Assembly: GCA_026988735.1 (NCBI GenBank) | Contig: JALSKR010000154.1 | Span: 1-14,624 of the forward strand | DNA length: 14,624 nt | Origin: Sulfurimonas sp. | GTDB lineage: Bacteria; Campylobacterota; Campylobacteria; Campylobacterales; Sulfurimonadaceae | Direction: 5' to 3' | Part shown: piece after piece, positions 1 through 13,716 of the stretch | Position numbering within the stretch: the first letter of the stretch is position 1 | Layout: the number at the start of each line of letters is the position of its first letter | The notes under the pieces: generated by a model | Databases searched by the model: none | The model's input: only the letters and a program-made list of their open reading frames with translations | What the model was told of the DNA's origin: nothing | Made by a program: the position numbers and the translations under genes

Positions 1-155
1 GTAAATTCACAGGCTTCTGTTGTACATCCCGGTGTATTGTCTCTCGGGTAAAAATAGAGTACCACCCATTTTCCTTTTAAGTCCCGCAGACACATCTCTA
101 CATCATCCTGATTCGGCAGGCAAAAATCCGGTGCCTTTTCTCCAACTTCTATCAT
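1..155 (-). CDS. bcp: Thioredoxin-dependent peroxiredoxin, PrxQ/Bcp family (3' part outside window)
   Basis: Partial gene: the first 51 codons are present and the rest lies beyond the left edge. The N-terminus begins MIEVGEKAPDFCLPNQ, and residues 39-51 carry the PrxQ signature DNTPGCTTEACEF, with peroxidatic Cys44 and resolving Cys49 five residues later, the spacing typical of atypical 2-Cys Bcp/PrxQ enzymes. The family reduces hydroperoxides in the cytoplasm using thioredoxin, which would protect a microaerophile or sulfur oxidiser from peroxide. Two extra cysteines (Cys12, Cys22) are visible. The start is supported by a GGAG ribosome site about 8 bases upstream. It lies 102 bases downstream of the DUF420-like gene on the same strand; a weak -10-like CATAGT (180-185, minus strand) may give it its own promoter. 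Family assignment is secure; the exact physiological substrate is not shown. Confidence 0.93.
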   Translation of the reverse strand, partial: MIEVGEKAPDFCLPNQDDVEMCLRDLKGKWVVLYFYPRDNTPGCTTEACEF

Positions 156-206
156 TTTCTTTCTCCTAAAAATAAATTTACTATGCAAACTTCTTGCTCT
201 TTGGAA

Positions 207-224
207 CCCGTACTTCAGTGCGGG
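207..224. repeat. Short GC-rich hairpin in the gap upstream of bcp
   Basis: On the plus strand CCCGTAC and GTGCGGG form a 7-bp stem (one T-G wobble) around a TTCA loop. It stands out against the AT-rich gap 156-257. On the minus strand, the direction of transcription, the stem has one A-C mismatch but outer G-T and A-T pairs can extend it. No T-run follows, so it is not a convincing intrinsic terminator. A 12-bp perfect palindrome GTCTTTAAAGAC (231-242) lies just beside it. It could be a dispersed intergenic repeat, an attenuator or RNA-end stabiliser between the DUF420-like gene and bcp. Confidence 0.45.
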
Positions 225-257
225 CTGTGCGTCTTTAAAGACTAAAGGCAAGGTTTT

Positions 258-737
258 CTAATACACAAACAACAGCAGATATACCCATATACCGCTAAAT
301 GAAGTAAAAACTATACCCAAAAAAGTTTTTAAAGCCAATAATTTATGCTCATTGGACTTTAACCCAGGAAGCACTCCTTTTACAGCTTGATAGTTCGCCT
401 TTATAACCGTACGACTCCAGTATACCAATGTAAGCACGGCTATGATTACATGTAACCCTAATACAATGGAAGCGTAAGTGTGCGAAACACCGCTTCCTTC
501 CATAAAAGCATCAAACCCTCCGCCCATACGGACACCGTATTCAAAATATCCGACAACAATGACCGATACAACAAAAATAACATTTTGAACAAAACCATGT
601 GCCTTGTAAAACTTTTTCCTTGCCAGAGCTATTGCTCCATATACCAACAAAGGTAAAACCGCCACAATAAGTGTCACAACATCCATAAACAAAGGAGCTC
701 TTGTTCCCAAAAACCCCTGCGCAAACATATAATCCAT
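258..737 (-). CDS. DUF420-like integral membrane protein
   Basis: A 159-residue, very hydrophobic protein with about four to five membrane segments (roughly residues 18-38, 50-66, 88-107 and 136-158) and no signal peptide. The start (N-terminal Gly-Phe-Leu-Gly-Thr-Arg), the four spaced histidines His47, His86, His96 and His131, and the C-terminal pattern (His-Lys followed by a segment with Ser-Gly-x-Trp-Val-Tyr-Leu) resemble the DUF420/YozB family, some members of which (CtaM) assist haem-copper oxidase maturation. That role is known only for relatives and cannot be shown here. No cytochrome oxidase gene is in view. The ATG follows the dedA stop by 3 bases with an AAAGG ribosome site inside the end of dedA, so it is the last gene of the tightly packed run from ubiA. 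A second in-frame ATG at codon 4 lacks a ribosome site of its own. Confidence 0.72.
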   Translation of the reverse strand: MDYMFAQGFLGTRAPLFMDVVTLIVAVLPLLVYGAIALARKKFYKAHGFVQNVIFVVSVIVVGYFEYGVRMGGGFDAFMEGSGVSHTYASIVLGLHVIIAVLTLVYWSRTVIKANYQAVKGVLPGLKSNEHKLLALKTFLGIVFTSFSGIWVYLLLFVY

Positions 738-740
738 ATC

Positions 741-1340
741 TTATGCCTTTCTTTTTTGATAAGTGTAGTATATCCAGACTAATATTACCAACAAAACGAA
801 AACTATTATAGTTATCTCTTTTAAGTATTCCTGTATAAGTGCCTGATTTTCTCCTATAAAATAACCCAAAAGTGTCAGAATTAGTGCCCAGATTCCCGCC
901 CCCAGTGTTGTAAAAAGAGAAAATTCGACTATATTCATACGCGCCAGCCCCGCCGGTATAGAAATGAGCTGACGTATCCCGGGAATAAGCCTTCCTGTAA
1001 ATGTAGAAATATGCCCGTGACTTTGAAAATAGTTTTCCATTTTATCAAGTGTTTCAGGAAAAATAAAAAAATATTTTCCAAATTTTAAAAGAAATTTACG
1101 TCCCAGAGTCAGTGCCAGATAATAATTTACAAAGGCACCAAGCAGTGAGCCACCCAAAGCACTTCCCATAATGTAGGCTATGCTCATATCTCCTTTTGCT
1201 GCCAGATATCCGGCAGGAACCAAAACAATTTCACTCGGAAAAGGGATAAACGAAGATTCAATCGCCATCATAATAAAAATGCCAAGATATCCCCAGTCAA
1301 ATATCAAGTCTACCAAATCCTGTGCCAACTCTTTTATCAT
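741..1340 (-). CDS. DedA family (SNARE-associated/VTT domain) membrane protein
   Basis: A 199-residue inner-membrane protein. The N-terminal re-entrant region carries the family motif ESSFIPFPSE (28-37), and the second half has GRLIPGIRQLISIPAG (116-131) with the conserved Arg117 and Arg123, followed by further membrane segments and a basic C-terminus. DedA proteins are half-transporters linked to membrane potential, drug resistance and, for some members, flipping of undecaprenyl phosphate or phosphatidylethanolamine. A position directly after ftsW and murG fits recycling of the C55 lipid carrier used by MurG, but that substrate is inferred from context only. The ATG overlaps the murG stop (ATGA, 1337-1340), so translation is probably coupled. 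Length is normal for the family. Confidence 0.93.
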   Translation of the reverse strand: MIKELAQDLVDLIFDWGYLGIFIMMAIESSFIPFPSEIVLVPAGYLAAKGDMSIAYIMGSALGGSLLGAFVNYYLALTLGRKFLLKFGKYFFIFPETLDKMENYFQSHGHISTFTGRLIPGIRQLISIPAGLARMNIVEFSLFTTLGAGIWALILTLLGYFIGENQALIQEYLKEITIIVFVLLVILVWIYYTYQKRKA

Positions 1341-2359
1341 TTTATCTTCTTTTGCACATCTTGAATCATCTGCTGTGCAACATTCCCGTTTGTATAGTGT
1401 AGAAGTTTTTCACTCTTTTCTTTGAGTTGTGGATTTTTGAGCACCTTGATCAGTTTTGGTTTCAAATTTTTCCCTTCACGTTCGCACCATGCCAAATTCT
1501 CTTTGACAAGAAACTGCGCATTGTAATACTGATGATCAGCTGCGGCATAAGGGTAGGGAACAAAAAACGCAGGGCACCCGTTTGCTGTGAGTTCCCAAAG
1601 TGTTGAAGCACCTGCACGCGAAACAGCAAGATCTGCGCGTGTAATCAGCTCCGGCAGATTTTTTGTAAATCCATAAAGTTCGACTGAAACACCAAGTTTG
1701 TCATACTCCCGCTTTACTCTTTCATAGTCGGCTTCTCCCGCCTGATGTATAATGGCAATATTCATCTTTTGCAACTTATAGGCTACATGTAAAGCCAAAT
1801 CGTTAATCGCCTTTGCTCCGTGAGAACCGCCTAAAAATATAATGGTTTCAAGCTTGTCTCTGACTCTGGCATTTTTATAAAAAAACTCTTTTACCGGGTA
1901 TCCCTTAACCGGAGAATTCTCATCGTATGCAGAAATAAAACTTTTGGCATATCTTTTTAAAAGCTTGTTCAACCTGCCTGCAACCGAATTTTGCTCATGG
2001 ATAAAAAGCGGTATAAAAAGACTCAAAGAGGCAAAAGATGCAGGAGCTGCAGAAAATCCGCCGACACTGTAAACTGCCTGAACTTTATGTTTTTTTAAAA
2101 TCTTTCTTGCTTCTAAAAAGGCTTGAAAAATTTTATAGAGTGCTTTTAGCTTTGCAATACTTTTTTTGTTCACAACACCTGTTGTTTCTAAAAAATAGAC
2201 ATGTGAAAAATTACTGTGGTGTCCAAAATATTTTCTGTCCTGTCCTGAAGCAGAACCGACAAAAATCACCTCATGTCCATCTGCTACCGCAGCTGCAGAC
2301 AAAGACTCGGCAATCATCAAATGCCCCCCTGTTCCGCCGCCTGTAATGCATAATTTCAT
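1337..2359 (-). CDS. murG: UDP-N-acetylglucosamine--N-acetylmuramyl-(pentapeptide) pyrophosphoryl-undecaprenol N-acetylglucosamine transferase
   Basis: MurG, 340 residues, a GT-B glycosyltransferase on the cytoplasmic face of the inner membrane. It adds GlcNAc to lipid I to make lipid II, the peptidoglycan precursor. Visible motifs: glycine-rich loop GGGTGGHL (7-14), HEQN (121-124) in the acceptor region, second glycine loop GGSHGAKAIND (177-187), and the UDP-GlcNAc pocket with RAGASTLWE (248-256) and PYAAADHQYYNA (270-281). Length matches the family. The ATG has an AAGGA site about 8 bases upstream and starts 12 bases after ftsW. The ftsW-murG pair is a remnant of the classical division and cell-wall cluster and supports calling the upstream gene FtsW rather than RodA. 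The 3' end overlaps dedA by 4 bases. The sequence contains one copy of the iterated TACATGTAA motif at 1783-1792, read as Leu-His-Val. Confidence 0.97.
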   Translation of the reverse strand: MKLCITGGGTGGHLMIAESLSAAAVADGHEVIFVGSASGQDRKYFGHHSNFSHVYFLETTGVVNKKSIAKLKALYKIFQAFLEARKILKKHKVQAVYSVGGFSAAPASFASLSLFIPLFIHEQNSVAGRLNKLLKRYAKSFISAYDENSPVKGYPVKEFFYKNARVRDKLETIIFLGGSHGAKAINDLALHVAYKLQKMNIAIIHQAGEADYERVKREYDKLGVSVELYGFTKNLPELITRADLAVSRAGASTLWELTANGCPAFFVPYPYAAADHQYYNAQFLVKENLAWCEREGKNLKPKLIKVLKNPQLKEKSEKLLHYTNGNVAQQMIQDVQKKIK

Positions 2360-2371
2360 ATTTGTTTTTCC

Positions 2372-3538
2372 TTAGTTCATTTTTGCTTTTTTAGATGCCA
2401 TGAGCACCATACCCACGCCAAAAGCAGCGCCCAGCATTGCAGAACCGCCGTATGACAAAAAAGGTACTGAAATTCCTTTAATCGGTGTAATGCCGCTTAT
2501 GCCGTAGGCATTGACCAAGAACGAAAAAGAGAGAATCAGTCCGATGCCTATACTAAAAAGATATATACTGGTGTCTTGTGTCCTGTTGGCTATTTTAAAT
2601 ATACGCTGAATCATCCACAAAAAAATAAAAACAACACAAAAAACACCAAAAAAACCAAACTCTTCCGCAAGTCCTGCCAACACAAAATCGGTATGCACCT
2701 CACTTAAAAACCCCAGTTTGAATGTTCCGTTTGCAAGCCCTGTGCCAAAGAGTCCGCCATTGTGTATGGCATTGAGCGAATGCCCTATCTGGTAGGGTTC
2801 TACTTCAACAGGCACCCGAAGTCTCTCTGCAATCGCGTCAGGCAAGAGGTCAAGCACAGAGTTTTGCGCCAAAGCCCACCATGATTTGATTCTGAGTATT
2901 CTGTGATGTGCCGTTACAATAAAAAGAATAACTGCTCCAAAAATCACACCCAAAATAGACAAGAAAAACCGAAAGCTGCTTCCTGCAAAAATCAGCATAA
3001 AAAGCAGTGTTGCACCAAGGACAACAACCTGACCCAAATCTTTTTGTAAAAAAGCTATGATAAACATTGCCCCTAAAAAAATAACGGCATAGGGCATAAA
3101 CCTTTTAAACTCATTGGAGAGTCCCATACCGTCATGATGCCCGAGTTTGCGAGAAAAACTCCACGCCAGAAAATAGATAAAACCGACCTTGAAAAACTCC
3201 ACCGGTGCAAGAGAAAAACCCGCTATTTTAATCCATCGTTTTGCTCCGCCAACTTCAGAAACAATACTCTCCGGTAAAAACGGCATGGCTATCATTAAAA
3301 TCAAAGAACCAAAAAAGAGAGTGAAACCTATGGGTTTGAGCCACTTGTCCGGATCAAGTTGTGAAAGTACAAAAATTATTGTTATGCTGATAAGACCAAA
3401 AACAGTCTGTCTTATGGCAAAATGAAACTCATTCACACCGAATAGGAGTGTTGTATACGGCGTCAGTGTATACGAAAGGACTATGCTTATGCCAATTAAA
3501 AGTGACACGAGGGTAAAAAGCTTTCTGTCTGCGTTCAC
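2372..3538 (-). CDS. ftsW: SEDS-family peptidoglycan glycosyltransferase FtsW
   Basis: A 388-residue polytopic protein with about ten membrane segments. SEDS hallmarks are present: GGAKRWI (97-103), PVEFFKVG (112-119), QKDLGQ (165-170), the periplasmic loop with HTDFVLAGLAEEFGFFG (282-298) holding the likely catalytic Asp284, and the C-terminal GISGITPIKGISVPFLSYGG (346-365). SEDS proteins polymerise lipid II glycan strands together with a class B PBP; FtsW does so at the septum. FtsW is preferred over RodA because murG follows directly. The start is a GTG: translation begins Met-Asn-Ala-Asp-Arg-Lys just before the first membrane segment, 7 bases after the upstream stop, with only a weak AGAG-like ribosome site, so reinitiation from the upstream gene is likely. 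The cytoplasmic N-tail is very short compared with that of E. coli FtsW. Confidence 0.92.
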   Translation of the reverse strand: MNADRKLFTLVSLLIGISIVLSYTLTPYTTLLFGVNEFHFAIRQTVFGLISITIIFVLSQLDPDKWLKPIGFTLFFGSLILMIAMPFLPESIVSEVGGAKRWIKIAGFSLAPVEFFKVGFIYFLAWSFSRKLGHHDGMGLSNEFKRFMPYAVIFLGAMFIIAFLQKDLGQVVVLGATLLFMLIFAGSSFRFFLSILGVIFGAVILFIVTAHHRILRIKSWWALAQNSVLDLLPDAIAERLRVPVEVEPYQIGHSLNAIHNGGLFGTGLANGTFKLGFLSEVHTDFVLAGLAEEFGFFGVFCVVFIFLWMIQRIFKIANRTQDTSIYLFSIGIGLILSFSFLVNAYGISGITPIKGISVPFLSYGGSAMLGAAFGVGMVLMASKKAKMN

Positions 3539-3545
3539 GCTTGCT

Positions 3546-4070
3546 CTACTTTATCTTATTTATTTTTAATACAAATTCCACTTCAGGTTTGGAAAGGTGC
3601 AGTTCTTTGGAAATTGTCTCTATGGAAACACCCTGCTTGAAAAGTGATATTATTTTTTCATCATCATTCCCGTGAATAGAGGCGGGAATAGAGATCTGTT
3701 TTACACCGCTTTCAAGTTGCAGTATTTTGTTTTGTATCTCATGCTCAATGGTATTAATATTATTTTGTAACTGCTTTATCGCCAAAGAGAGCGGATGTAC
3801 CATATCATAGACACTGCGTTCAATTTCCTGATAAATCTCTTCATCATTCATTCTTTGTGAGTTGTCCTTTATACTGCTTTGTGTCTGGTCAAGCTTTTTT
3901 TTCAGATAATAAAACTCTCTGTTTAAATCTTCAACCACAGAAGCAACTGATCGGATATTTTTTGAGTACTCGGCATCTTTTGTATAAACATAATAGAGCA
4001 GATAAAGAATAATCGCACCAAGTATCACAATGAGATATTCTGTATTGAAACTGAACTGATCCAAATTCAC
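3546..4070 (-). CDS. Membrane-anchored coiled-coil protein with C-terminal HTH-like segment
   Basis: Unrecognised at gene level. 174 residues: one N-terminal membrane segment (about 11-29), a long charged, Gln/Asn-rich coiled coil (about 40-125), and a compact C-terminal helix-turn-helix-like module (about 137-171) of the form 'I-x-L-F-K-x-G-x-S-I-E-x-I-S-K-E-L-x-L-S-x-x-E-V-x-F-V-L'. This order (one membrane helix, coiled coil, HTH-like DUF6115-type tail) recalls the SwrB/YlxL family of Firmicutes, which acts on flagellar export assembly; the resemblance is architectural only. The protein should be a single-pass inner-membrane protein facing the cytoplasm. The start is GTG, overlapping the upstream stop as GTGA (4067-4070), which implies translational coupling with the possible PilZ-like protein. 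A role in division or motility is inferred from position before ftsW and is unproven. Confidence 0.75.
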   Translation of the reverse strand: MNLDQFSFNTEYLIVILGAIILYLLYYVYTKDAEYSKNIRSVASVVEDLNREFYYLKKKLDQTQSSIKDNSQRMNDEEIYQEIERSVYDMVHPLSLAIKQLQNNINTIEHEIQNKILQLESGVKQISIPASIHGNDDEKIISLFKQGVSIETISKELHLSKPEVEFVLKINKIK

Positions 4071-4591
4071 TGTTTTTTCTCTTTGGATTCACGGATTAAG
4101 ATACGTTCGCGTGCAGTGAGATAAGCAGCCCACTCTTTTTCATCACGCTCGTGCATTCTGACAATCTGTGCCAAATTGGGAGAAAGTGCCTTAAAAAACA
4201 CGCCGATATCACGTTTGGGATGCACCGGCATATTGATACGCCCATAGTACTCTTTACCCTCTTGCAGCATAGGCTCTTCAAGTTCAAAATGTTCAAACCC
4301 TATAGCTTTTATATGCGCTTCATTTGTCAAAGAGAGTCTTTTTGGTGTTTCATTTTTTAAAAACATTTCAAGCGCATCTATTTTCCGGTGCAGTTCCACC
4401 ATCAGGTTGAGCAGTACCGGATCGCTCTCTGCTGTTTCGCCACGGGCTTTTGCAAGCTTGAGCCACTGAGAAATCGGATCATCGTCACTTTCGCTCAGTT
4501 GCTGATATTCTCTTTCGTATGCATCTTTGTTCAAATCAGCTTCGGAAAAAACTATAGCAATCGGTGCGGGAACTAAACGGGGTTTATTCAT
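4067..4591 (-). CDS. Conserved cytoplasmic protein, possible degenerate PilZ-like domain
   Basis: A 174-residue soluble protein with no signal or membrane segment. The N-terminal third is acidic and low in hydrophobics. Residues 58-79 form a Leu-rich amphipathic helix (LLNLMVELHRKIDALEMFL), followed by a predicted beta-rich section (about 84-148) with 'L-S-L-T-N-x-x-x-x-x-I-G-F', and a charged C-terminal helix. This layout resembles the atypical (tPilZ-type) PilZ domains, where a helix precedes a beta barrel; the canonical c-di-GMP motifs RxxxR and (D/N)xSxxG are not present, so ligand binding cannot be assumed. The ATG overlaps the ubiA stop (ATGA, 4588-4591), and its own 3' end overlaps the next gene, so three proteins are coupled in translation. 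PilZ assignment is tentative; the gene itself is clearly real. Confidence 0.72.
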   Translation of the reverse strand: MNKPRLVPAPIAIVFSEADLNKDAYEREYQQLSESDDDPISQWLKLAKARGETAESDPVLLNLMVELHRKIDALEMFLKNETPKRLSLTNEAHIKAIGFEHFELEEPMLQEGKEYYGRINMPVHPKRDIGVFFKALSPNLAQIVRMHERDEKEWAAYLTARERILIRESKEKKQ

Positions 4592-5460
4592 GATACTACC
4601 TTGTCTGTTATGATTAAAATTAAAAAAGCAATACCCAGATAGCCGTTAACTGTAAAAAAAGCACGGTCTATCTTTGTAAAATCTTTTCGTACTAATCTCT
4701 GCTCATAATAGAGCACAAATCCACTGCCAACAGCAGCTATATAGGCAAATATTCCAAGATCTGCAGCCCATACAAAAAGGAGCCAAAACAAAACAGCCAG
4801 GGCATGAAAAAGAGCAGAGATAAAGAGTGTAGCATCTGCTCCGTAACGAGACGGAATAGAATACAAATCATTGTCTTTGTCAAAATCCATATCCTGCAAA
4901 GAATAAAGCAGGTCAAATCCTGCAACCCAAAAAATCACACCCAATGAAAGTAAAACCGACCATAAAGGGATAGCAGCACTCACAGCAACCACTCCGGCAA
5001 TAGGTGCAAGCCCTAATGCAAGTCCTAAAACAACATGCGCCAAAGAGCTAAAACGCTTGAAGTAAGAGTACGAAGCCAAAACAAACAAAATAGGAAAGCT
5101 TAACGCAAAGGCAAGAGAATTTATCATATATGCTACGGCAATGAAAATAAGAGCATTGACAACTATAAATATAAGTATGCTTCCCCTGTCAAGTCTGCCG
5201 TCTACATTCGGACGGCTGCTTGTTCTTGGGTTTTTTGCATCAATATCACGATCGGCATAACGGTTTACACCCATTGCAAAATTTCTTGCACTGAGTGCCG
5301 CCAAAACACCTAGAATCAAAAGCCATAGACCAAACCAACCATCTGTTGCCACTATCATCGCTATAAAAATGAATGGCAGAGAAAAGATGGAATGTTCAAA
5401 CATCACAAGTTCATTAAAATCTTTTGCTTTTTGTATTATTCTTTGCAAATCAAACCTCAT
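4588..5460 (-). CDS. mqnP: UbiA-family prenyltransferase, probably MqnP of menaquinone synthesis
   Basis: A 290-residue protein with about eight to nine membrane helices. Both Asp-rich diphosphate/Mg binding motifs of the UbiA superfamily are visible: N66-R-Y-A-D70-R-D-I-D74 and Y186-x3-D190-M-D192-F-D194. Family enzymes transfer a polyprenyl chain to an aromatic acceptor in the inner membrane. Campylobacterota make menaquinone by the futalosine route, in which MqnP prenylates 1,4-dihydroxy-6-naphthoate (or its product), so this is the likeliest substrate; 4-hydroxybenzoate (UbiA) is the alternative name often seen in annotation. The distinction is from lineage knowledge, not from a residue I can point to. 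The start codon is supported by GGAG about 13 bases upstream, a rather long spacing. It lies 42 bases after the hybrid-kinase stop; GATAAAAT in this gap could be a -10. Confidence 0.85.
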   Translation of the reverse strand: MRFDLQRIIQKAKDFNELVMFEHSIFSLPFIFIAMIVATDGWFGLWLLILGVLAALSARNFAMGVNRYADRDIDAKNPRTSSRPNVDGRLDRGSILIFIVVNALIFIAVAYMINSLAFALSFPILFVLASYSYFKRFSSLAHVVLGLALGLAPIAGVVAVSAAIPLWSVLLSLGVIFWVAGFDLLYSLQDMDFDKDNDLYSIPSRYGADATLFISALFHALAVLFWLLFVWAADLGIFAYIAAVGSGFVLYYEQRLVRKDFTKIDRAFFTVNGYLGIAFLILIITDKVVS

Positions 5461-5502
5461 CTCTGTATTTATGCTCCATTTTATCCAAATGTGATTTAAA
5501 TT

Positions 5503-8500
5503 TTAATGATATTGTGCAACTCCTGTTTTAAATACCTCAATATACTCATAAAGTAATTCTACTTTATTTTTATGTTGCATAGCATTCTCTTCCAATGCAC
5601 TTTTTTCTATTGTTTGCATAAGTTCATGTATATCTTCAAGATAGAGTGCGCCTGCCGCACCTTTGAGTTTATGTGCTGTTTCATATATTTTTTTATTGTC
5701 TTGGCTTGTAAAAGCATCTTCAAGTACAGGCACAAGTTCATCTAAACTCTCTAAAAACAAGCTTAAGAGTTTTATTCCGACTTCTTTTCCCACTCCCACT
5801 TTTGTATTTACCTGCTGTAAAATTTTTTCTATGTCTATAGACACAGCATCTTCTGGCCCTTGTGAGTATTTAGCCAAAATTGCTTCTAATTTTGTACTGT
5901 CTATTGGCTTGCTCAGATAATCATTCATACCGCAGGCAAGAAATTTTTCCCTGTCTCCTTTGATGGCATTTGCCGTCAATGCTACAATGGCAACATCAGA
6001 CTGCAGTTCCCTGCGTATATTTTTTGTAGCTTCAAGACCGTTCATAACCGGCATATTGATGTCCATAAAAACCAAATCATACTCATTTTGCGCCACTTTG
6101 TCTACAGCCTCTTTCCCGTTATGCGCAAATTCAAGTGTCACATTTGTATACTTCTTAAAAATTGATTCTATCAACATTCTGTTTATTTCATAATCTTCTG
6201 CAACGAGTACATGTAAATAAAGTTTGTCGCATGCCTCATCTTCTTTGCACCCTCCATGTGTATTGTCTTCTTCAACCGTTTCTTCATCTGCATCACACAG
6301 ATCAAAATCCAAATAAAAGAAAAAATTACTTCCCTCTTTTTCAACAGACTCTACCTGCAGTTCACTGCCAAATACATGCAGCAGATCAGCACTGATACTT
6401 AAGCCAAGTCCTGTTCCTCCGAATCTTCTTGTTGTTGATGTTTCTGCCTGGACAAATGGCTTGAATATCTCTTTGAGTTTATCAGGGGCAATACCAATCC
6501 CACTGTCTTTGATGCTGAAATGGACTCTTTGCTGTGTTGGCGTTTCATGAACCAAAGATATACTAAATGTAACTTTTCCGCACTCAGGAGTAAATTTAAT
6601 GGCATTTGAGAGCAAATTAATCATAACCTGGCGAAGTCGTGTCGCATCACTGTATATACATGATGATATGGCATTATCAATTTCCAACGTATAGTGCAGT
6701 CCTTTTTCATCTGCTACTGATTTGAGCAGTTCATAGGTTGTTGCAAATTCTACAAAAGGATTCAAAGCTACCTTTTCAAGTGAGATTTTATTGTTGGTTA
6801 TTTTTGAAGAGTCTAAAATATCATTGACAATATTAAGCAGTGTTTTTGTCGAACTGCTGATAACATTGAGATATTTTTCCTGTGTTGCATTCAGCCGTGT
6901 TTTACCCAGCAACTCTGTAAAACCCAAAATACCGTTCATCGGTGTTCTGATCTCATGGCTCATATTTGCCAAAAACATTGCCTGTGCTGTTTCGGCCGCT
7001 TCAGCTTTTTTTCTACTCTCTACCAAAGAGGTTACATCTTCGCGAATGGCCATATATTCTATAATTTTATTATTCTCATCATGAATGGGAATTATAGAAC
7101 TCTTTACATAGTAACTGCTTCCGTCTTTTGCCCTGTTTGCAAATTCTCCCTGCCAGATGTTTCCTTTTCTTATTTCCCTCCACATCTCGGCAAAGACCTC
7201 ATCAGGGACATCAGGGTCACGGACAATACTGTGCGATTTGCCAATAAGTTCTTCTTTTGTATAGCCGCTCACTTCCTCAAAACGTTCATTTACATAGGTA
7301 ATGTTTCCAAGCGTATCTGTTCTTGAAATTATGACAACACTGTCAAGTGCTTTTAAAAATTCATCAAGTTTAAACTTCGATGCTTTGAAGTTTCTCTCTT
7401 TTTCTTTGAGTTCACTTGTCACATAGTCAATTAAATTAAAAAGTGCACTGTCAGTCTTTGAAACATTTTTATCTCTTCTTTTTTCTCTACACTTGCTTTT
7501 GAGTGTACGTGTTCCTTTTTCGTGCAGAAAAAGTATAGTTGTTGTAATATTGAGCAGTCTTGCCCTTGTATTATTGAGAAAAAATTCTCCGAAGGTAAAA
7601 AAGCCCGATGTAGGTGCTTTTTGTTCAAGCAGTCGAAATGTTTTTTCAAGCTCTTTGCCTAAAAATTGTTTTCGAGCAAGACATGAGTATATAAAACAGG
7701 ACTGCAGTGACTCCTCATCAAAAAGTCTATTCTTTGTATTGTATTGATTTACCAGTGTTCTGCTTCCTATACCAAAACGAACTTTCTCACCCTCTTCAAG
7801 ATTTCCCCCATATAAAAGACTGCCATCATCATTTACATGTAACATTGACCGTGCTATAAATATATCCTCTTCCTGGCAAATTAGCGGAAACTCTATCGTA
7901 GAAGCCGGCATATTGTCTACTGCAAATGCTCCAAGTACTTCCGCATACACATCTTTTACCGGACGATTGTCAATTTCATATACTCTTGCACCCTCGGATT
8001 TGGTAATAGTAAAAGTCGGTCCAACCGCTCTCCACCCCAGGTTATAATCCTGATATACCTCTAAGTCCTCTCCTTTTAAGGCAACACATACCGCACCACC
8101 GTCAAAAACCTTATTTTGAAAAATAGTATATGTTTGTTTGAAATCAAGCATATCCCCTGCCATACCGCCTGCAAGTACAACATTATTGAGATTCAACACA
8201 GAGAGTCCGTAGAGATACTCCTGTCCGTTATGCTGCAGTCCGTCTAAAAATGTAATAACACATTTCGTCTCTTTATCAAAAACCTTTTTAGAAAGTGCAA
8301 CCCCTAAGGCATAAGACTCCTCGCCTCTTTCATAGTAAGCATGAAGCCTTGTTTTTTCAAACACAGAGATACTGATAACAGTGCTGTTTTCCAGCATCTC
8401 ACCATTCATAATTTCTCCCGCTGTAGAGGCACCGATCAATGCTGCATTTGGCAGTGTAGCATGTATTTGTGAAGCGATATTCTCTATTTCCTCTTGAGAA

Positions 8501-8616
8501 CCAAGCGAGGTAAACATCTGTATAAGAGTATTTTCATTATTCGTATCAATATAAGATTCTTTTAAAAATTTAAAAAAGTCCTCTTTGTCTTTGTATCTGT
8601 AATTGTACTGCTTCAT
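5503..8616 (-). CDS. Cytoplasmic hybrid sensor histidine kinase: FIST_N-FIST_C-PAS-HisKA-HATPase-REC-Hpt
   Basis: 1037 residues, no membrane segment or signal peptide. Order: FIST_N (about 30-225, with GASTAGEI 62-69), FIST_C (about 226-365), linker helix (390-425), PAS (about 420-530, with YVNERFEEVSGYT 441-453), HisKA with phospho-acceptor His554 in NMSHEIRTPMNG, HATPase_c with N-box Asn667/Asn671, DSGIGI (704-709) and GGTGLGLS (733-740), REC (about 802-915) with Glu807/Asp808, phospho-acceptor Asp852, Thr881 and Lys903, and a C-terminal Hpt with His982 in AHKLKGAAG. FIST domains are intracellular sensors thought to bind small ligands such as amino acids; PAS may add redox or ligand input. 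All residues for a complete His-Asp-His relay are intact, so an external response regulator is expected; none is adjacent. An acidic linker (771-795) separates kinase and REC. A -10-like TATAGT (8642-8647, minus strand) lies upstream. The output target is unknown. Confidence 0.95.
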   Translation of the reverse strand: MKQYNYRYKDKEDFFKFLKESYIDTNNENTLIQMFTSLGSQEEIENIASQIHATLPNAALIGASTAGEIMNGEMLENSTVISISVFEKTRLHAYYERGEESYALGVALSKKVFDKETKCVITFLDGLQHNGQEYLYGLSVLNLNNVVLAGGMAGDMLDFKQTYTIFQNKVFDGGAVCVALKGEDLEVYQDYNLGWRAVGPTFTITKSEGARVYEIDNRPVKDVYAEVLGAFAVDNMPASTIEFPLICQEEDIFIARSMLHVNDDGSLLYGGNLEEGEKVRFGIGSRTLVNQYNTKNRLFDEESLQSCFIYSCLARKQFLGKELEKTFRLLEQKAPTSGFFTFGEFFLNNTRARLLNITTTILFLHEKGTRTLKSKCREKRRDKNVSKTDSALFNLIDYVTSELKEKERNFKASKFKLDEFLKALDSVVIISRTDTLGNITYVNERFEEVSGYTKEELIGKSHSIVRDPDVPDEVFAEMWREIRKGNIWQGEFANRAKDGSSYYVKSSIIPIHDENNKIIEYMAIREDVTSLVESRKKAEAAETAQAMFLANMSHEIRTPMNGILGFTELLGKTRLNATQEKYLNVISSSTKTLLNIVNDILDSSKITNNKISLEKVALNPFVEFATTYELLKSVADEKGLHYTLEIDNAISSCIYSDATRLRQVMINLLSNAIKFTPECGKVTFSISLVHETPTQQRVHFSIKDSGIGIAPDKLKEIFKPFVQAETSTTRRFGGTGLGLSISADLLHVFGSELQVESVEKEGSNFFFYLDFDLCDADEETVEEDNTHGGCKEDEACDKLYLHVLVAEDYEINRMLIESIFKKYTNVTLEFAHNGKEAVDKVAQNEYDLVFMDINMPVMNGLEATKNIRRELQSDVAIVALTANAIKGDREKFLACGMNDYLSKPIDSTKLEAILAKYSQGPEDAVSIDIEKILQQVNTKVGVGKEVGIKLLSLFLESLDELVPVLEDAFTSQDNKKIYETAHKLKGAAGALYLEDIHELMQTIEKSALEENAMQHKNKVELLYEYIEVFKTGVAQYH

Positions 8617-8684
8617 GAAAAATCTTTTTGTTTGAGTTTACACTATATGGCTTTATAAAGTTATTAATTATGCCTTCTTACTTA

Positions 8685-8704
8685 AGTTTGCTATAATTAC
8701 TCTC
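8685..8704 (+). promoter_or_regulatory. Extended -10 promoter for the coiled-coil lipoprotein-miaA operon
   Basis: A perfect TATAAT (8692-8697) is preceded by TGC, giving an extended -10 (TGnTATAAT) as is usual for sigma-70 promoters in Campylobacterota, which lack a conserved -35. The expected start of transcription is near 8704, leaving a leader of about 27 bases before the ATG at 8731, with AAGG at 8716-8719 as ribosome site. The region 8617-8730 is a divergent intergenic stretch shared with the hybrid kinase. Confidence 0.7.
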
Positions 8705-8730
8705 TAAAATAATACAAGGTTTGCCCAATT

Positions 8731-9402
8731 ATGAAATTTACTGTTTTTCTTTTTCTTCTCCTTTTTTTCACTGCCTGTAATTTCACAGAATCCAAAGAAG
8801 AGCTTGCCGCAAAACAGCTTGAGCAGAAAAAAGCTTTTGAAGCAAAAATTGCCGATACAAAAGAGGTACAGCTGAAAAAAATTGATGCACAAAAAGAGCA
8901 GGAACTGGCAAAAATCAATGCACAAACGACTCTGGCTAAAATGGAAAAAGCACAGCTTTTGGAAAAAATAAAACTTGAAGCCGCAGCACAAAAAGAAAAA
9001 ATGCTTTTGGCGCAGGCCAAAGAAAAAGAGGCTTTTGAAGCAAAACTGCGTGACTTAGAGCGTCAGGATGCTATGGAGTTGAAACGCTATCTTTTACTCA
9101 TACTCTTTTTTGTATTGGTTATTGCTACATATTTTATCTACATCTACTTCAAACGCAGACATGATGACAAACTCAGGGCCTATCAGGACAATCTCGACAA
9201 ATATTTTCATCAGCAGGAAAATATGACAAAAATGCGCATAGCCGAAAAAATCATTGACACTGTTGCCAGCGGAAAGCTTGAAAAAGAACAGGAAAGTGCA
9301 CTTATACAGGCACTCAGTGGAACCATCACCCCATCAGCACAAACAGAACTGTTGCTTGACGAGAGCAGTGAAGAAGTAGAACTCATCGAAGAGAAAAAAT
9401 GA
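8731..9402 (+). CDS. Putative lipoprotein / membrane protein with long Ala-Lys-Glu-Gln coiled coil
   Basis: Unrecognised family, 223 residues. A hydrophobic N-terminus ends in a lipobox-like FTAC with Cys16 (Phe at -3 is atypical, Ala at -1 good). Residues 20-118 are a nearly continuous coiled coil rich in Ala, Lys, Glu and Gln with irregular repeats such as FEAKI/FEAKL and KxQELAKINAQ. A second membrane segment spans about 120-140 and is followed by Lys-Arg-Arg, so the C-terminus (141-223, ending in an acidic tail) should be cytoplasmic. If Cys16 is lipidated, the coiled coil would sit in the periplasm between two anchors, an odd topology; alternatively the N-terminus is a plain membrane helix. 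Its stop overlaps the miaA start (ATGA, 9399-9402), so it is translated with miaA, though no functional link is evident. The ORF on the opposite strand here is a by-product of the repetitive codons. Confidence 0.8.
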   Translation: MKFTVFLFLLLFFTACNFTESKEELAAKQLEQKKAFEAKIADTKEVQLKKIDAQKEQELAKINAQTTLAKMEKAQLLEKIKLEAAAQKEKMLLAQAKEKEAFEAKLRDLERQDAMELKRYLLLILFFVLVIATYFIYIYFKRRHDDKLRAYQDNLDKYFHQQENMTKMRIAEKIIDTVASGKLEKEQESALIQALSGTITPSAQTELLLDESSEEVELIEEKK

Positions 9403-10289
9403 CACCACGCCAACTTGCCATCATAGGACCTACCGCTTCTGGAAAAAGTGATCTGGCTATTAAAGTTGCACAAAAACTTAATGCCTACATACTCTCCATA
9501 GACTCTTTAAGTATCTATAAAGAGATAGACATCGTTTCTGCTAAACCATCCAAAGAAGAGCTTGCACAAATCAAACATTTTGGCATCAACGAACTCTTTG
9601 TCAATGAATATTTCAGTGTTGATATTTTTATAGATTTATACAAAAAAGTTTATGCTACATGTAAAGAAGAGGGTAAAAATCTCGTTATAGTAGGCGGTAC
9701 CTCTTTTTATCTTAAATCTCTGCTTGAGGGACTGTCACCCTTACCACCTATTAGCTCAGAACATCGTTTACATGTAAAGCACAAACTGCAAAACCTGCAA
9801 GAGTGCCATGATTTTTTAACAAAGATTGATGCAGAACATATGCAAAAAATAACTCCTCATGACAAATACCGCATAGAAAAAGCACTCTTGATTTATGAAG
9901 CTTCACAACTCCCACCGAGCCAATGGTTCAAACAAAATCCGCCAAAGCCTGTCATTACAGATTTGCAGATTTACAATATTGATGTAGAGCGTGAAGTATT
10001 GCGTGAGCGTATCCAAAAAAGAACACAAAAGATGTATGAACAAGGGCTTATTGACGAGGTCTGTTTTTTGGAACAAAAATATACAAGAGCACCCCATGCC
10101 ATTGGTGCGATAGGCATCGTAGAGGTTTTAGACTACCTTGATGGAAAAATTGAAAAAGAGGAGATGCTCTCACTTATCTCTACACATACAGCCCAACTTG
10201 CCAAAAGACAGCAAACTTTTAACCGCACACAGTTTGCTGATGTAACAAGTGCAAAACTTGAGGATTTAGAGGAACTTATACTTTCTTAA
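9399..10289 (+). CDS. miaA: tRNA dimethylallyltransferase
   Basis: MiaA, 296 residues, transfers the dimethylallyl group to N6 of A37 in tRNAs reading codons that begin with U, the first step to ms2i6A. Motifs: P-loop GPTASGKS (10-17) that binds the prenyl diphosphate, catalytic-site Asp35 in SIDSLSIY followed by DIVSAKP (44-50), GGTSFYL (99-105), the region KYRIEKALLIYE, the MiaA signature QKRTQKMYEQGLIDEV, and C-terminal QQTFNRTQF. The usual DSRQVYRGMDIGTAKP is altered to DSLSIYKEIDIVSAKP, which as I recall it is the Campylobacterota form. The ATG is inside the stop of the coiled-coil gene. The stop overlaps the stop of the convergent porin gene (10286-10289) with no terminator between. Two copies of the iterated TACATGTAA motif (9656-9664 and 9769-9777) lie in this gene. 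Confidence 0.96.
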   Translation: MTPRQLAIIGPTASGKSDLAIKVAQKLNAYILSIDSLSIYKEIDIVSAKPSKEELAQIKHFGINELFVNEYFSVDIFIDLYKKVYATCKEEGKNLVIVGGTSFYLKSLLEGLSPLPPISSEHRLHVKHKLQNLQECHDFLTKIDAEHMQKITPHDKYRIEKALLIYEASQLPPSQWFKQNPPKPVITDLQIYNIDVEREVLRERIQKRTQKMYEQGLIDEVCFLEQKYTRAPHAIGAIGIVEVLDYLDGKIEKEEMLSLISTHTAQLAKRQQTFNRTQFADVTSAKLEDLEELILS

Positions 10290-11560
10290 AAAGCATAATT
10301 CAGTCGAAGAAGTGTACGCTTATATCCGGCATCGTTACTTCCACTGTTCTTTTTGTCATCCACAAGTGCATAACTCGCTTCAAAATCCAACTTATCACTT
10401 GCTATATAACTAAAAATAATATCGTGTTCTTCATACTCTACAGGTGCGGCTGCATTCGTACCATCAAAACGACCAAAAGCATACGAAAATCCCAAATTTT
10501 GTAAAACAGTTTGACTTAAATCAATTTCCATACCCACTACATAAGCACTGGCATCATCAATAGAATCTATTGTCATTTCTTCCATAGATGTATAGTAGGG
10601 GCCTCCTCCATATCCAATAATAATCGTTTGGTTGCCAGGTGTTATAACATCATTGTAGGCAAAACTTATTCCTATTCCTTTATAAGTGACACCTGTTACG
10701 CCACCATAAACATCGCCCTCAATCATCGAAGAAGAACGTTCGTGATAATGGGCATATTGTCCTGCTAAAGATATACCGATATCACTGTTGAGCGATACTT
10801 CATATGTAGCCTCTATATATTCTAAATCTGTCTGTTTATCAAAACCATAATACCAAGCCTGCAGTTCTACATTTTCAAAACTTTTATTCATTACACCAAA
10901 AAATACTGCATATTTTCCCGTTTCTCCAGTTGCACCTATTGTTCCAGGTATATCTTTAAATTTTGAAATATTTTGACCAGAATCATATCCTGCCCATGCT
11001 GTAATATAACCAGAAACAAAAACAAAATCTTTTATACCACCATAGCCTAATGTCACAGCTTCAAAAGTATTGGGAACCATACGAATATCATCTCTGTCAT
11101 TAAAAGGTGTATCTAGTTTTTGTCGTCCAATGCGTAAATCAAAATTATTATAGTAATAGTCAATATATGCTTCTCCAAAATATGTCAAAGAACTGCCATC
11201 TCCATCGAAAAAATCAAGATTTAATTTACCGGTATTAAAATCTCCACTTAGCGGTGTTATATTTTGCGAAACAAATAAAGAAAGACCAATAGAAGTGTTA
11301 TAATATTTCGCACTTTCATATTTTATCTCCCCTCCTATAGCAGTACCATATGTATCTGGTGTTGTTGTTGCATCATTGTTTTGTCTGACATGTGCTAATC
11401 GAATGTGTCCGGAAACTTCTCCCTGCGTAAAAACATCATCAAACGAATCAACGCTAACAAAATCTGTACCATCACATAGACACACACTGCTACATCTATA
11501 ATCTTGCATTGCAAATGACATAGAACACAAAACACCAATCAAACTAAAATATTTTACCAT
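10286..11560 (-). CDS. OprD-like outer-membrane porin
   Basis: A 424-residue outer-membrane beta-barrel. A signal peptide (about 1-17, cleavage near SFA-MQ) precedes a mature protein of alternating hydrophobic/polar strands that ends in Leu-Asn-Tyr-Ala-Phe, the terminal-Phe signal for BAM insertion. The segment RIGRQKLDTPF...DDIRMVPNTFEA (142-169) is characteristic of OprD-family porins, which import small solutes such as amino acids, dipeptides or aromatic acids. The substrate here is not visible. The mature N-terminus has an unusual Cys cluster, Cys23, Cys27 and Cys29. The ATG has an AAGGA site about 9 bases upstream and follows the aguB stop by 17 bases, so it is probably the third gene of the ppiC-aguB-porin operon, though an additional promoter inside aguB is possible for an abundant porin. 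The 3' end overlaps the miaA stop. Confidence 0.86.
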   Translation of the reverse strand: MVKYFSLIGVLCSMSFAMQDYRCSSVCLCDGTDFVSVDSFDDVFTQGEVSGHIRLAHVRQNNDATTTPDTYGTAIGGEIKYESAKYYNTSIGLSLFVSQNITPLSGDFNTGKLNLDFFDGDGSSLTYFGEAYIDYYYNNFDLRIGRQKLDTPFNDRDDIRMVPNTFEAVTLGYGGIKDFVFVSGYITAWAGYDSGQNISKFKDIPGTIGATGETGKYAVFFGVMNKSFENVELQAWYYGFDKQTDLEYIEATYEVSLNSDIGISLAGQYAHYHERSSSMIEGDVYGGVTGVTYKGIGISFAYNDVITPGNQTIIIGYGGGPYYTSMEEMTIDSIDDASAYVVGMEIDLSQTVLQNLGFSYAFGRFDGTNAAAPVEYEEHDIIFSYIASDKLDFEASYALVDDKKNSGSNDAGYKRTLLRLNYAF

Positions 11561-11577
11561 TTAACACTTTTCCTTAA

Positions 11578-12438
11578 TTATTTTTCTTTACATAGAGGAG
11601 TATACATCTGACTTCTTCTGTCTCTTAATAATCCCCAATACTCTCTTTGCTTTGCGTTTTCATCTAAATCATATTCACCGTAAATTATCTCTTCCTTGTC
11701 ACGAGAGGCTTCGGCAATTTTTTTGCCTGTGTAATCTGTAATGAATGAAGAACCATAAAAAGTAAGTTCACAGTTTTCTCCCCTCTCTTTGCCAATACGG
11801 TTTGCAGCAACTACGGGCACGGTATTTGCCGCGGCATGTCCCATCTGTACTCTTTGCCAGTGTTCTTTTGAATCTAGCCCGATTTCAGGTTCACTTCCAA
11901 TGGCTGTCGGGTAAAAGATAATCTCAGCACCCATAAGTGTCAAAGCCCGTGCTGTCTCACAAAACCATTGATCCCAGCAGATTCCGACGCCGATTTTTCC
12001 GTATGCTGTTTCATAGACTTTAAAGCCTGTGTCTCCGGGTTTGAAGTAAAACTTTTCTTCATAGCCCGGGCCGTCAGGTATATGTGTTTTTTGGTAATTG
12101 TCCATCACAGTTCCGTCTGCATTAATGACAACAAGTGAGTTAAAACAACCTTCTTGTGCTTTTTCAAAATAACTAACTAATACAACTACATGTAATGCTT
12201 TTGCCAGATCTGCAAAATGTTGAATTAGTTTGTTATTTTTAAGCGGTTTTGCCCACTCAAAATATTTTTTGTCTTTGTCTTTACAAAAGTAAAGCCCTTC
12301 AAAAAGTTCCGGTAAAAGTATGATCTTGGCCCCATTTGCAGCAGCCTCGCGGACAAACTGCTCAGCCTTTAAAACATTAGCGTGTTTATCTTCGCTCATA
12401 CTCATCTGAATTGCAGCCACTTTTACCGGTTTACTCAT
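11578..12438 (-). CDS. aguB: Carbon-nitrogen hydrolase, probably N-carbamoylputrescine amidase
   Basis: A 286-residue nitrilase-superfamily enzyme with the complete catalytic set: Glu44 in LLPELFEG, Lys117 in QKTHIPDGPG, and nucleophile Cys154 in GVGICWDQWFCETAR. A second acidic residue (Glu127/128 in GPGYEEKFYF) also fits. The WDQWFPE-like motif and the overall length match AguB, which hydrolyses N-carbamoylputrescine to putrescine, CO2 and NH3, the last step of the agmatine route to putrescine and spermidine. The partner agmatine deiminase (aguA) is not in the window. Beta-alanine synthase-like or other amidases of the same branch are the alternatives. The start follows the ppiC stop by 3 bases, and the porin gene follows by 17 bases. 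One TACATGTAA copy (12187-12195) is read as Leu-His-Val. Confidence 0.9.
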   Translation of the reverse strand: MSKPVKVAAIQMSMSEDKHANVLKAEQFVREAAANGAKIILLPELFEGLYFCKDKDKKYFEWAKPLKNNKLIQHFADLAKALHVVVLVSYFEKAQEGCFNSLVVINADGTVMDNYQKTHIPDGPGYEEKFYFKPGDTGFKVYETAYGKIGVGICWDQWFCETARALTLMGAEIIFYPTAIGSEPEIGLDSKEHWQRVQMGHAAANTVPVVAANRIGKERGENCELTFYGSSFITDYTGKKIAEASRDKEEIIYGEYDLDENAKQREYWGLLRDRRSQMYTPLCKEK

Positions 12439-12441
12439 AAC

Positions 12442-12720
12442 CTACCCTCTGCCTGTCACTTCTAAAAGATGGTACCCAAACTGTGTTTGAATCGGTCCGT
12501 ACACAACACCTACATCTCCGCTAAATACCGCTTTGTCAAATTCAGGAACCATCTGTCCCGGACCAAACTGTCCTAAATCTCCGCCATTTGCAGAAGAAGG
12601 ACATGTTGAATTTGCTTTTGCCACCTCACCAAAATCCGCTCCGTTTTCTATCTCTTTTTTAAGTTCATTACATTTTTCTTCACTCTCTACAAGTATATGT
12701 CTAGCTGTTGCCCATGCCAT
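12442..12720 (-). CDS. ppiC: Small cytoplasmic parvulin peptidyl-prolyl cis-trans isomerase (PpiC type)
   Basis: A 92-residue stand-alone parvulin domain without signal peptide, matching E. coli PpiC (Par10) in length and layout: ATARHILVESEE at the start with active-site His8, the CPSSANGGDLGQF block (40-52) with Cys40 in the catalytic position, GQMVPEFDKAVFS (55-67), and TQFGYHLLEV (79-88) with His84. It catalyses cis-trans isomerisation of prolyl bonds in the cytoplasm. It is the first gene of the operon with aguB and the porin, separated from aguB by 3 bases. The ATG has an AAGGAA site about 8 bases upstream. A minus-strand -10 candidate TATAAG (12766-12771) would give a leader of roughly 40 bases. 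Confidence 0.94.
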   Translation of the reverse strand: MAWATARHILVESEEKCNELKKEIENGADFGEVAKANSTCPSSANGGDLGQFGPGQMVPEFDKAVFSGDVGVVYGPIQTQFGYHLLEVTGRG

Positions 12721-12765
12721 ATTTTCAATTCCTTAGTTTTATTTCTAAAATTTTACTCTCTTTTT

Positions 12766-12774
12766 ACTTATAAT
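12766..12774. promoter_or_regulatory. Divergent -10 region upstream of ppiC
   Basis: The string CTTATAATT contains TATAAG on the minus strand (12766-12771), correctly placed to drive ppiC, and overlapping TATAAT on the plus strand (12769-12774), which could serve as an upstream promoter for the lipoprotein gene. The gap 12721-12840 is very AT-rich and has no other visible structure. Confidence 0.45.
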
Positions 12775-12805
12775 TAAACTCTAAAATCTATTTCTTAGTT
12801 ACTTT

Positions 12806-12820
12806 TGGTACAATGCCTAA
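12806..12820 (+). promoter_or_regulatory. Extended -10 promoter for the single-Cys lipoprotein gene
   Basis: TGGTACAAT (TACAAT at 12809-12814 preceded by TGn) is an extended -10 element. It predicts a transcript start near 12821, about 20 bases before the ATG at 12841, with GGAG at 12828-12831. This placement also argues against the longer reading frame that begins with a TTG at 12805, since that codon would lie in the promoter itself. Confidence 0.6.
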
Positions 12821-12840
12821 AAATTATGGAGAAAAGAATT

Positions 12841-13410
12841 ATGAAAAATATACTTATAGGAATTTTAGCAACTTTTTTACTGCTGGGATGTAGCTCAAAG
12901 AGTGATGAAAATAAAAATATAGAACCAAAACTTGTTGTCGGAAAAAGTTTGACAGATTTAAACCTTAAAGACCAGTTTGGCAAAGAGCATAGCTTAAATG
13001 CAGATACATACAAAGTGATTTTTGCTTTTGACAAAGAGCCTGCACATACATGTAACGACTTTTTTAACACACAAAAACCTACATATCTGCAAGAGCATCA
13101 TGTACAGTTTGTAGCCGATGTCAGTGCTGCTCCTTCTATCATCAGAAGCCTCTTTATTTTACCGGGACTCAAAGATTTCAAACATATTGTACTGCTCTTG
13201 GATGACAAAAACATTGCTGCGCCTTATAGAAAAGGTGTAGATACAACCAAGATTGTCGTTGTGACACTTTTAAACAAAAAAATCACTGACATTAAAACTG
13301 TCAGCACAAAAGAAAAGTTACAAAAAGAAGTAGAAGATGACTCTGCTATGTCATACATCGCACCCGTTATCAACAAAGTCATGGACAGCGTCGATAACGC
13401 TGCAAAATAA
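12841..13410 (+). CDS. Lipoprotein with a thioredoxin-like fold lacking a CxxC motif
   Basis: 189 residues from the ATG at 12841. This start is chosen because GGAG lies 9 bases upstream and because it gives a perfect lipoprotein signal: MKNILIGILATFLLLGC with lipobox LLGC and lipidated Cys17 followed by Ser-Ser. The frame is open further upstream to a TTG at 12805, but that falls in the promoter. The body (about 35-165) reads like a thioredoxin/peroxiredoxin-type alpha-beta fold: 'GKSLTDLNLKDQFGKEHSL' resembles the opening of TlpA/Prx proteins ('DL.DQFG....L'), and the strand VIFAFDKEPAHTCNDF holds the only Cys of the mature domain, Cys71, at the site expected for the active site, without a partner. 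A redox or structural periplasmic role is possible but unproven; I do not recognise the family by name. Ser18 at +2 predicts sorting to the outer membrane by the Lol pathway. Confidence 0.82.
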   Translation: MKNILIGILATFLLLGCSSKSDENKNIEPKLVVGKSLTDLNLKDQFGKEHSLNADTYKVIFAFDKEPAHTCNDFFNTQKPTYLQEHHVQFVADVSAAPSIIRSLFILPGLKDFKHIVLLLDDKNIAAPYRKGVDTTKIVVVTLLNKKITDIKTVSTKEKLQKEVEDDSAMSYIAPVINKVMDSVDNAAK

Positions 13411-13705
13411 CAGCAACAGACGAAAATATATAATCAGGTTTGATGCCAAAAGACAAATCTTTTTCTAAAAACATTTTTGTCACATCAAATGCTGTAATGA
13501 TTTCATCACGAACAATCTCAAAGCCCATTTATTGCAGTTTTGCAACGACTTGGGCAGAGGTTTTTTGGGTGGTATTTGTCAAAAAACGTACAGAATAATG
13601 TTTTTTTATCTCTTTTATTGCTGCCCCTGGAACCGGGCTGTCACCCACATATAAAACACCACCGATGTCGCACAGTACCGCTTTTACTGATGTATCAAAT
13701 AGCAT
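13411..13705 (-). pseudogene. Decayed HAD-superfamily (IIA, LHPP-like) phosphatase remnant with in-frame stop
   Basis: Translating the minus strand from the ATG at 13703-13705 gives a clear HAD-IIA N-terminus: KAVLCDIGGVLYVGDSPVPG (motif I Asp13), then VRFLTNTTQKT (motif II with the conserved Thr) and a helix ending KLQ. Codon 59 is TAA (13529-13531), after which the same frame resumes as MGFEIVRDEIITAFDVTKMFLEK, the expected continuation in LHPP-like proteins, so one AAA or CAA to TAA change would explain the stop. Similarity fades near 13460, and the frame ends at TGA (13379-13381) inside the 3' end of the convergent lipoprotein gene; the catalytic cap and motifs III/IV of a ~250-residue enzyme are missing. 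A strong AGGAGG sits 5 bases before the ATG, immediately after the glutaminase stop, so it was once translated with glsA. The first 58 codons may still be made as a peptide. Confidence 0.85.
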
Positions 13706-13716
13706 AACATCCTCCT

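Follow-up and report, generated by a model that had tools for sequence, protein, structure and literature searches.

What makes one eight-base palindrome recur along a stretch of bacterial DNA? The question is raised by 14,624 nucleotides of the sulfur-oxidizing bacterium Sulfurimonas sp. (contig JALSKR010000154.1, positions 1 to 14,624; this whole stretch is called the window), in which the perfect palindrome TACATGTA occurs eight times, with starts at 447, 1784, 6208, 7834, 9656, 9769, 12187, and 13047. The G+C content of the window is 38.2%, and 200 dinucleotide shuffles gave a mean of 0.18 copies and a maximum of 2. The preliminary description of this DNA had reported eight copies, far above chance, and all eight positions were found. 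It had also pointed to the spelling of Leu-His-Val. In the 15 translated open reading frames (ORFs), six of the seven Leu-His-Val tripeptides are indeed written TTACATGTA and one is written CTGCATGTA, while the two remaining copies of the palindrome read as Thr-Cys on translation, as had been stated. By analogy with the DNA uptake sequence (DUS) and the uptake signal sequence (USS), we propose that TACATGTA is probably a tag for self-recognition of DNA, in one of several dialects, and that it acts as these sequences do; membership in their class, which is defined by preferential uptake or transformation of DNA bearing the word, is not claimed.

The excess is found throughout the genome. The genome of the window (G000) is a draft of 1.86 Mb in 291 contigs, 80% complete, and it has 544 copies of TACATGTA versus 22 of the reversed control word. 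A near-complete relative (G011, 2,342,011 bases) has 693 copies versus about 29 expected from a Markov model; this expectation was computed for G011 and for short loci, and the numbers for other genomes are plain counts. Coding sequences of G011 contain 652 copies, whereas 20 synonymous-codon reassignments gave a mean of 78 and at most 95. This control rules out codon or amino acid usage as the cause of the excess and supports the earlier idea of a highly iterated palindrome under selection at the DNA level. Leu-His-Val is the most over-represented tripeptide of G011, and thus TACATGTA has bent the proteins. According to Findlay and Redfield, USS reportedly bend the proteome as well.

The observation that favors an uptake-like role is that close relatives carry different words. 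A scan of the named loci for palindromes only had missed these words, and they were recovered when all 7- to 9-mers were scanned in the window and in those named loci that are at least 9 kb long (62 of 80). Many Sulfurimonas loci poor in TACATGTA are equally dense in another word, either CCACATGCC (15 copies in 17.8 kb), AAACGCAG, CTCACGCA, or a weaker candidate, and AGATGCTA surfaced in genome G369. The dialect of S. indica is CTCACGCA, with 12 copies in 20.8 kb of locus L007. Counted over whole genomes, AAACGCAG is high in 5 of 80 (361–1,822 copies; next 141), CTCACGCA in 3 of 80 (621–962; next 114), CCACATGCC in 3 of 80 (905–1,427; next 90), and AGATGCTA in 7 of 71 (663–1,329; next 343). 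All 18 genomes on these four lists have at most 54 copies of TACATGTA, and wherever two of the words were counted in a genome, they were never both abundant (G057 has no counts of AAACGCAG to CCACATGCC, and AGATGCTA was counted in only some of the genomes of other dialects). Many Sulfurimonas genomes have one dominant 8- to 10-mer, which stands about every 1 to 7 kb where enrichment is clear and is scarce in island-like stretches; the longest gaps without TACATGTA in G011 resemble islands. None of AAACGCAG, CTCACGCA, CCACATGCC, and AGATGCTA is a palindrome. All four contain GCRT on one strand, which is the case for 7.4% of random octamers; this was noticed post hoc, and GCRT is absent from TACATGTA.

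The distribution of TACATGTA itself is patchy. With enrichment defined as at least 100 copies, 14 of 60 Sulfurimonas genomes (G000–G059) were enriched and the remainder had at most 62, and the TACATGTA dialect was assigned to 17 of 77 genomes of the genus. In a survey of 398 genomes of the order, the threshold was reached by 9 of 46 genomes of the same family and by 42 of 44 genomes of a second family (f20), where 42 of the 44 were also at least fourfold over the control and the highest count was 1,727, in a genome of 3.0 Mb. By our own reading of the table, the other 308 genomes had at most 51 copies each. Two further counts are 611 in G182 and 527 in G385. A tree built from DnaB, ComEC, and PriA (26 genomes, 22 labelled) requires at least six dialect changes where the minimum possible is four, and it places genomes sharing TACATGTA, as well as genomes sharing AAACGCAG, in separate clades. 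An AguB tree gave at least eight changes with 31 of 81 rows labelled; for this tree L063 (3 copies and a stronger other word) was left unassigned by hand, and L002 and L004 (2 copies each) were counted as TACATGTA. Since the starred branches of the AguB tree force only one change per group, dialect changes were judged on the three-gene tree.

If TACATGTA works like an uptake sequence, a surface receptor of a type II/type IV-pilus-like uptake machinery would bind the word, and the cell would prefer DNA of its own species, which bears the word, for uptake and transformation. Through biased uptake and recombination (molecular drive), perhaps together with selection, perfect sites would then accumulate, even at a cost to proteins. 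When the specificity of the receptor shifted, the old word would decay, a new one would spread, and the species would become isolated from each other's DNA. Uptake sequences and methyltransferase targets had been named in the preliminary description only as precedents; the differing words of the relatives now favor the former, and the latter are disfavored by the enzymes found in G011, as discussed below. The matches listed in the open-licence literature describe uptake words of this over-represented kind for Neisseriaceae and Pasteurellaceae only, and none for Sulfurimonas, Sulfurovum, or Campylobacterota. It is about an even bet that Sulfurimonas and its relatives extend DNA self-tagging beyond these two families. 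A single genus would then use at least five words that largely exclude each other and change from one close species to the next, among them the first uptake word that is a palindrome, and the switches would act as recombination barriers aiding speciation. If true, at least five dialects within a genus of another phylum would be a testbed for the origin of such words, for the switching of receptor specificity, and for the isolation of species, and the words would allow a quick genome-based guess of DNA exchange partners among vent and redoxcline bacteria.

Several features are shared with known uptake sequences. The DUS of Neisseriaceae form eight dialects with thousands of copies (Frye 2013, PMC3630211). 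The Sulfurimonas words are similar in that they have many copies (here hundreds to thousands), that there is one dialect per species, and that sister taxa differ. Neisserial dialects have a common CTG core and follow phylogeny (PMC12616744), whereas TACATGTA and AAACGCAG each appear in more than one clade; moreover, the words described here are from another phylum, include one palindromic dialect, and are putative uptake words. The USS of Pasteurellaceae is a 9-bp word without orientation bias and with common coding copies, which is also similar, and its inner core is GCGG where four dialects here have GCRT, a likeness again noticed post hoc (PMC12616744, PMC1939737). Unlike the two USS types, there are at least five words here, and near-matches of TACATGTA are not enriched. 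DUS and USS are asymmetric, share a core, track phylogeny, and have enriched near-matches, and the Sulfurimonas words differ from them in these respects (PMC3630211, PMC12616744, PMC1939737).

The preliminary description had suggested looking at the conservation of sites in relatives, and the outcome was mixed. Homologous sites were compared with other k-mers, and they were kept above this background from G011 to G182 (8 of 9 vs 24%), from L048 to L049 (10 of 12 vs 22%), from L273 to L274 (8 of 10 vs 16%), and from L012 to L026 (17 of 32 vs 26%). Retention was weaker from L024 to L026 (14 of 21 vs 44%, p = 0.03). In two relatives of other dialects, 0 of 10 window sites were kept; other k-mers were kept at 11%, and the sites are not clearly below this value (p = 0.30).

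The remaining comparisons, together with other observations, weigh against an uptake-like role. The comparison k-mers were unmatched for codon position or protein conservation. Between the window and four TACATGTA relatives, 7 of 14 sites were kept versus about 19% expected (p = 0.009, a site being counted anew for each relative), and between L259 and L261 5 of 6 were kept versus 44% (p = 0.06); conservation is weak in both. From L259 to L260 none of five sites was kept exactly (vs 16%), and four of the five kept ACATGT with one flank base altered. For CTCACGC, there was no excess of retention from L271 to L272 (4 of 15 vs 22%). The one-mismatch octamers of TACATGTA show no overall enrichment in G011 (0.7 to 1.7 of expectation), which is unlike the gradual pattern of molecular drive. 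Known uptake sequences are non-palindromic and above expectation in non-coding DNA (PMC1939737). In contrast, TACATGTA is palindromic and slightly scarcer between genes, with 5.5% of its sites in the 7.7% of G011 bases that are intergenic by our own ORF calls. A dialect was assigned in 35 of 77 Sulfurimonas genomes, and the other 42 were without one. Lastly, many genomes of the genus have a background of 100 to 343 copies of AGATGCTA, and thus the cut at 600 copies for this word is arbitrary.

The competence machinery that an uptake-like role would need is encoded. ComEC was present in all of 72 genomes, whether or not they are enriched in TACATGTA; the patchiness is thus left unexplained by competence genes, which counts against this role. 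G011 encodes four T2SSE ATPases, T2SSG, and 14 pilin-like ORFs, of which ten were scanned and all ten matched N_methyl; DprA gave no match by regular expression, the only search made for it. In G011, a block runs from dnaB and comEC to priA and pilins, and pilin-like ORFs were present in 20 of 21 comEC loci inspected. The two pilins linked to ComEC were tried as the receptor and did not track dialect, since they showed no extra similarity within dialects and the residual difference pointed the wrong way (p = 0.90 and 0.98; 18 and 16 of 19 genomes, because the pattern missed G010 for one pilin and G004, G009, and G053 for the other). The same test found no association between ComEC similarity and dialect (p = 0.22), and PriA, the intended control, was associated with dialect (p = 0.0075), indicating that dialect partly follows descent. 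As side observations, one to three short pilin-like ORFs lie near comEC beside priA in the Sulfurimonas loci fetched (G011:C1:1989000-1999000 and L258–L276), the pilin-like ORF starting RAGFTMIEL has several dissimilar C-terminal types by eye, and the G011 genes for ComEC and PriA contain three copies of TACATGTA each.

Methylation might explain the word without any uptake. In cyanobacteria, the highly iterated palindrome HIP1 and the alternate HIPs are, like TACATGTA, very frequent octameric palindromes that are swapped for other words in some genomes, and alternate HIPs are tied to cognate methyltransferases (Elhai 2015, PMC4390886). An orphan methyltransferase would read the whole word or just its core, and mismatch repair directed by methylation would ratchet near-sites to perfect sites. 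That TACATGTA is mostly genic and patchy among relatives fits this explanation, and so does the fact that 9 of its 12 one-mismatch octamers fall below expectation in G011. PF01555, an N6_N4 methyltransferase family, was found in the enriched genomes G004, G032, and G033, but it was also found in some non-enriched genomes and was absent from G000 (only 80% complete), G006, G011, and G078. This occurrence does not match the enrichment, and the family was rejected as the cause. G011 has its 693 copies, yet a motif IV scan with Pfam searches of seven candidates found only three N6_Mtase genes as DNA methyltransferases, two of them with HsdM_N, and with neighbors that are HsdS-like by our own reading. 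The other motif IV candidates scanned were Cons_hypoth95, MTS, PrmC, and CheR (RNA, protein, or chemotaxis methyltransferases), and there was no C5 candidate and no type II or orphan methyltransferase in G011 by motif IV and Pfam; the scan covered 2,340,000 of 2,342,011 bases, and enzymes without classical motifs could escape it. Since these three genes are the only ones found by motif, and since the other four dialects are asymmetric, which is also unlike HIP1, we consider a methyltransferase unlikely to be the explanation. Campylobacter jejuni has a methylation-dependent uptake that involves RAATTY and CtsM. It belongs to the same phylum and discriminates own DNA at uptake through a type II/type IV-pilus-like machine, as is proposed here. 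The recognition of methylated DNA is required (PMC8468864). The tag there is methylation, whereas here it would be an over-represented word with no matching methyltransferase found in G011.

An abundant protein for chromosome organization, segregation, or repair might instead bind the word, with a specificity that varies by species. The word occurs along the entire chromosome of G011 at 15 to 44 sites per 100 kb, and a dimeric protein would fit a symmetric, strand-independent word. Five words in one genus, however, would mean repeated switches of specificity in a core DNA-binding protein, and the spacing is near-exponential and slightly clustered instead of regular, with stretches of up to 32 kb free of sites; such a protein therefore seems quite improbable. 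Words that act as recombination hotspots like Chi, differing by species, would suit the octamer length, the high density, and the species specificity. The orientation of Chi is set by replication. Per-locus strand counts of asymmetric words, in loci with at least four sites, were close to 50:50 for 113 CCACATGC sites (p = 0.60), 160 AAACGCAG sites (p = 0.75), and 76 CTCACGCA sites (p = 0.74), and one word is palindromic. This symmetry weighs against oriented words of either the Chi or the FtsK-orienting polar sequence (KOPS) type, and a Chi-like role is largely ruled out and very unlikely.

A KOPS-like word would orient the chromosome, and the preliminary description had called TACATGTA strand-oriented. 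All eight window copies are followed by A on the plus strand, which speaks for such a word, but T also precedes three of them. Across G000, the flanking A is present at 411 forward and 410 reverse sites of 544, or 75.5% per side, and at this frequency eight of eight on one side has a probability of about 0.11 and can be attributed to chance. In G011, the two flanks are nearly independent (A on both sides at 397 sites, 381 expected), and one-sided sites show no clear split between replichores whose border was taken from GC skew (36/56 vs 74/68, Fisher p = 0.06). Together with the unbiased asymmetric words, these counts leave practically no chance for a chromosome-orienting role, which is ruled out for the genome of the window. 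The motif is symmetric and nearer to about TTACATGTAA, with weaker flanks beyond. Two genomes differ in strand counts. In G237, TACATGTAA is lopsided (417 forward, 252 reverse; p = 2e-10), whereas most of the 34 genomes with such counts are not. This would favor a KOPS-like word, and it perhaps stems from a repeated element or from genuine orientation. In the CTCACGCA genome G099, there are 111 forward and 30 reverse copies of AAACGCAG, and our guess is a tandem or CRISPR-like array.

The flanks of TACATGTA vary among genomes. In eight counted genomes of one genus (g20) of family f20, A occupies 92 to 95% of sides, and thus the word there is nearly the ten-mer TTACATGTAA. For the other genera of f20, with seven genomes counted, the range is 16 to 79%, and in G032 and G054 the value is about 26%. 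A looser class has ACATGT in other flanks, for example in G046, with 440 copies of TACATGTA and 481 of VACATGTB.

Each of the eight window copies is located in an ORF. The copy at 447..454, as TTACATGTAA, encodes Leu-His-Val in a DUF420 ORF (258-737, minus strand) and is not kept in L003. The MurG-like ORF (glycosyltransferase family 28; 1337-2359, minus strand) has the copy at 1784..1791, also Leu-His-Val, kept in L002 but not in L003. Two Leu-His-Val copies are in the ORF at 5503-8616 on the minus strand, which encodes a hybrid sensor protein of 1,037 residues with FIST, PAS, histidine kinase, receiver, and Hpt domains: the one at 6208..6215 is not kept in L001 or L007, and the one at 7834..7841, as TTACATGTAA, is not kept in L001, L004, or L007. 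The MiaA-like ORF (IPP transferase; 9399-10289, plus strand) also has two copies. The one at 9656..9663 reads Ala-Thr-Cys-Lys and is kept in L001, L002, and L004 but not in L003 or L007, and the one at 9769..9776, as TTACATGTAA, reads Leu-His-Val and is kept in L001 and L004 but not in L002 or L003. The copy at 12187..12194 encodes Leu-His-Val in an AguB-like ORF (carbon-nitrogen hydrolase; 11578-12438, minus strand), kept in L005 but not in L001, L002, L004, L003, or L007. Named loci with a relative of this AguB-like protein place the window in the genus Sulfurimonas. The last copy, at 13047..13054, reads His-Thr-Cys-Asn in an ORF without a Pfam match (12805-13410, plus strand) and is not kept in L003.

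Some ORFs elsewhere are richer in the word, and those at G011:C1:867198-868385 and 230306-230704 contain five and four copies of TACATGTA. Further candidate words were seen in other loci, namely CCGAGTGAG (L021, L063), CAGATGC (L075), and AAACGCCA or AACGCCA (L043 and L269, a locus of G009), and they may be additional dialects. Intermediate numbers of CCACATGCC were found in G036 (85) and G041 (90), versus 2 and 4 for the control. G036 also has 359 copies of VACATGTB, and G041 is sister to the CCACATGCC genome G327 on the three-gene tree. The two genomes possibly represent a dialect in transition or decay.

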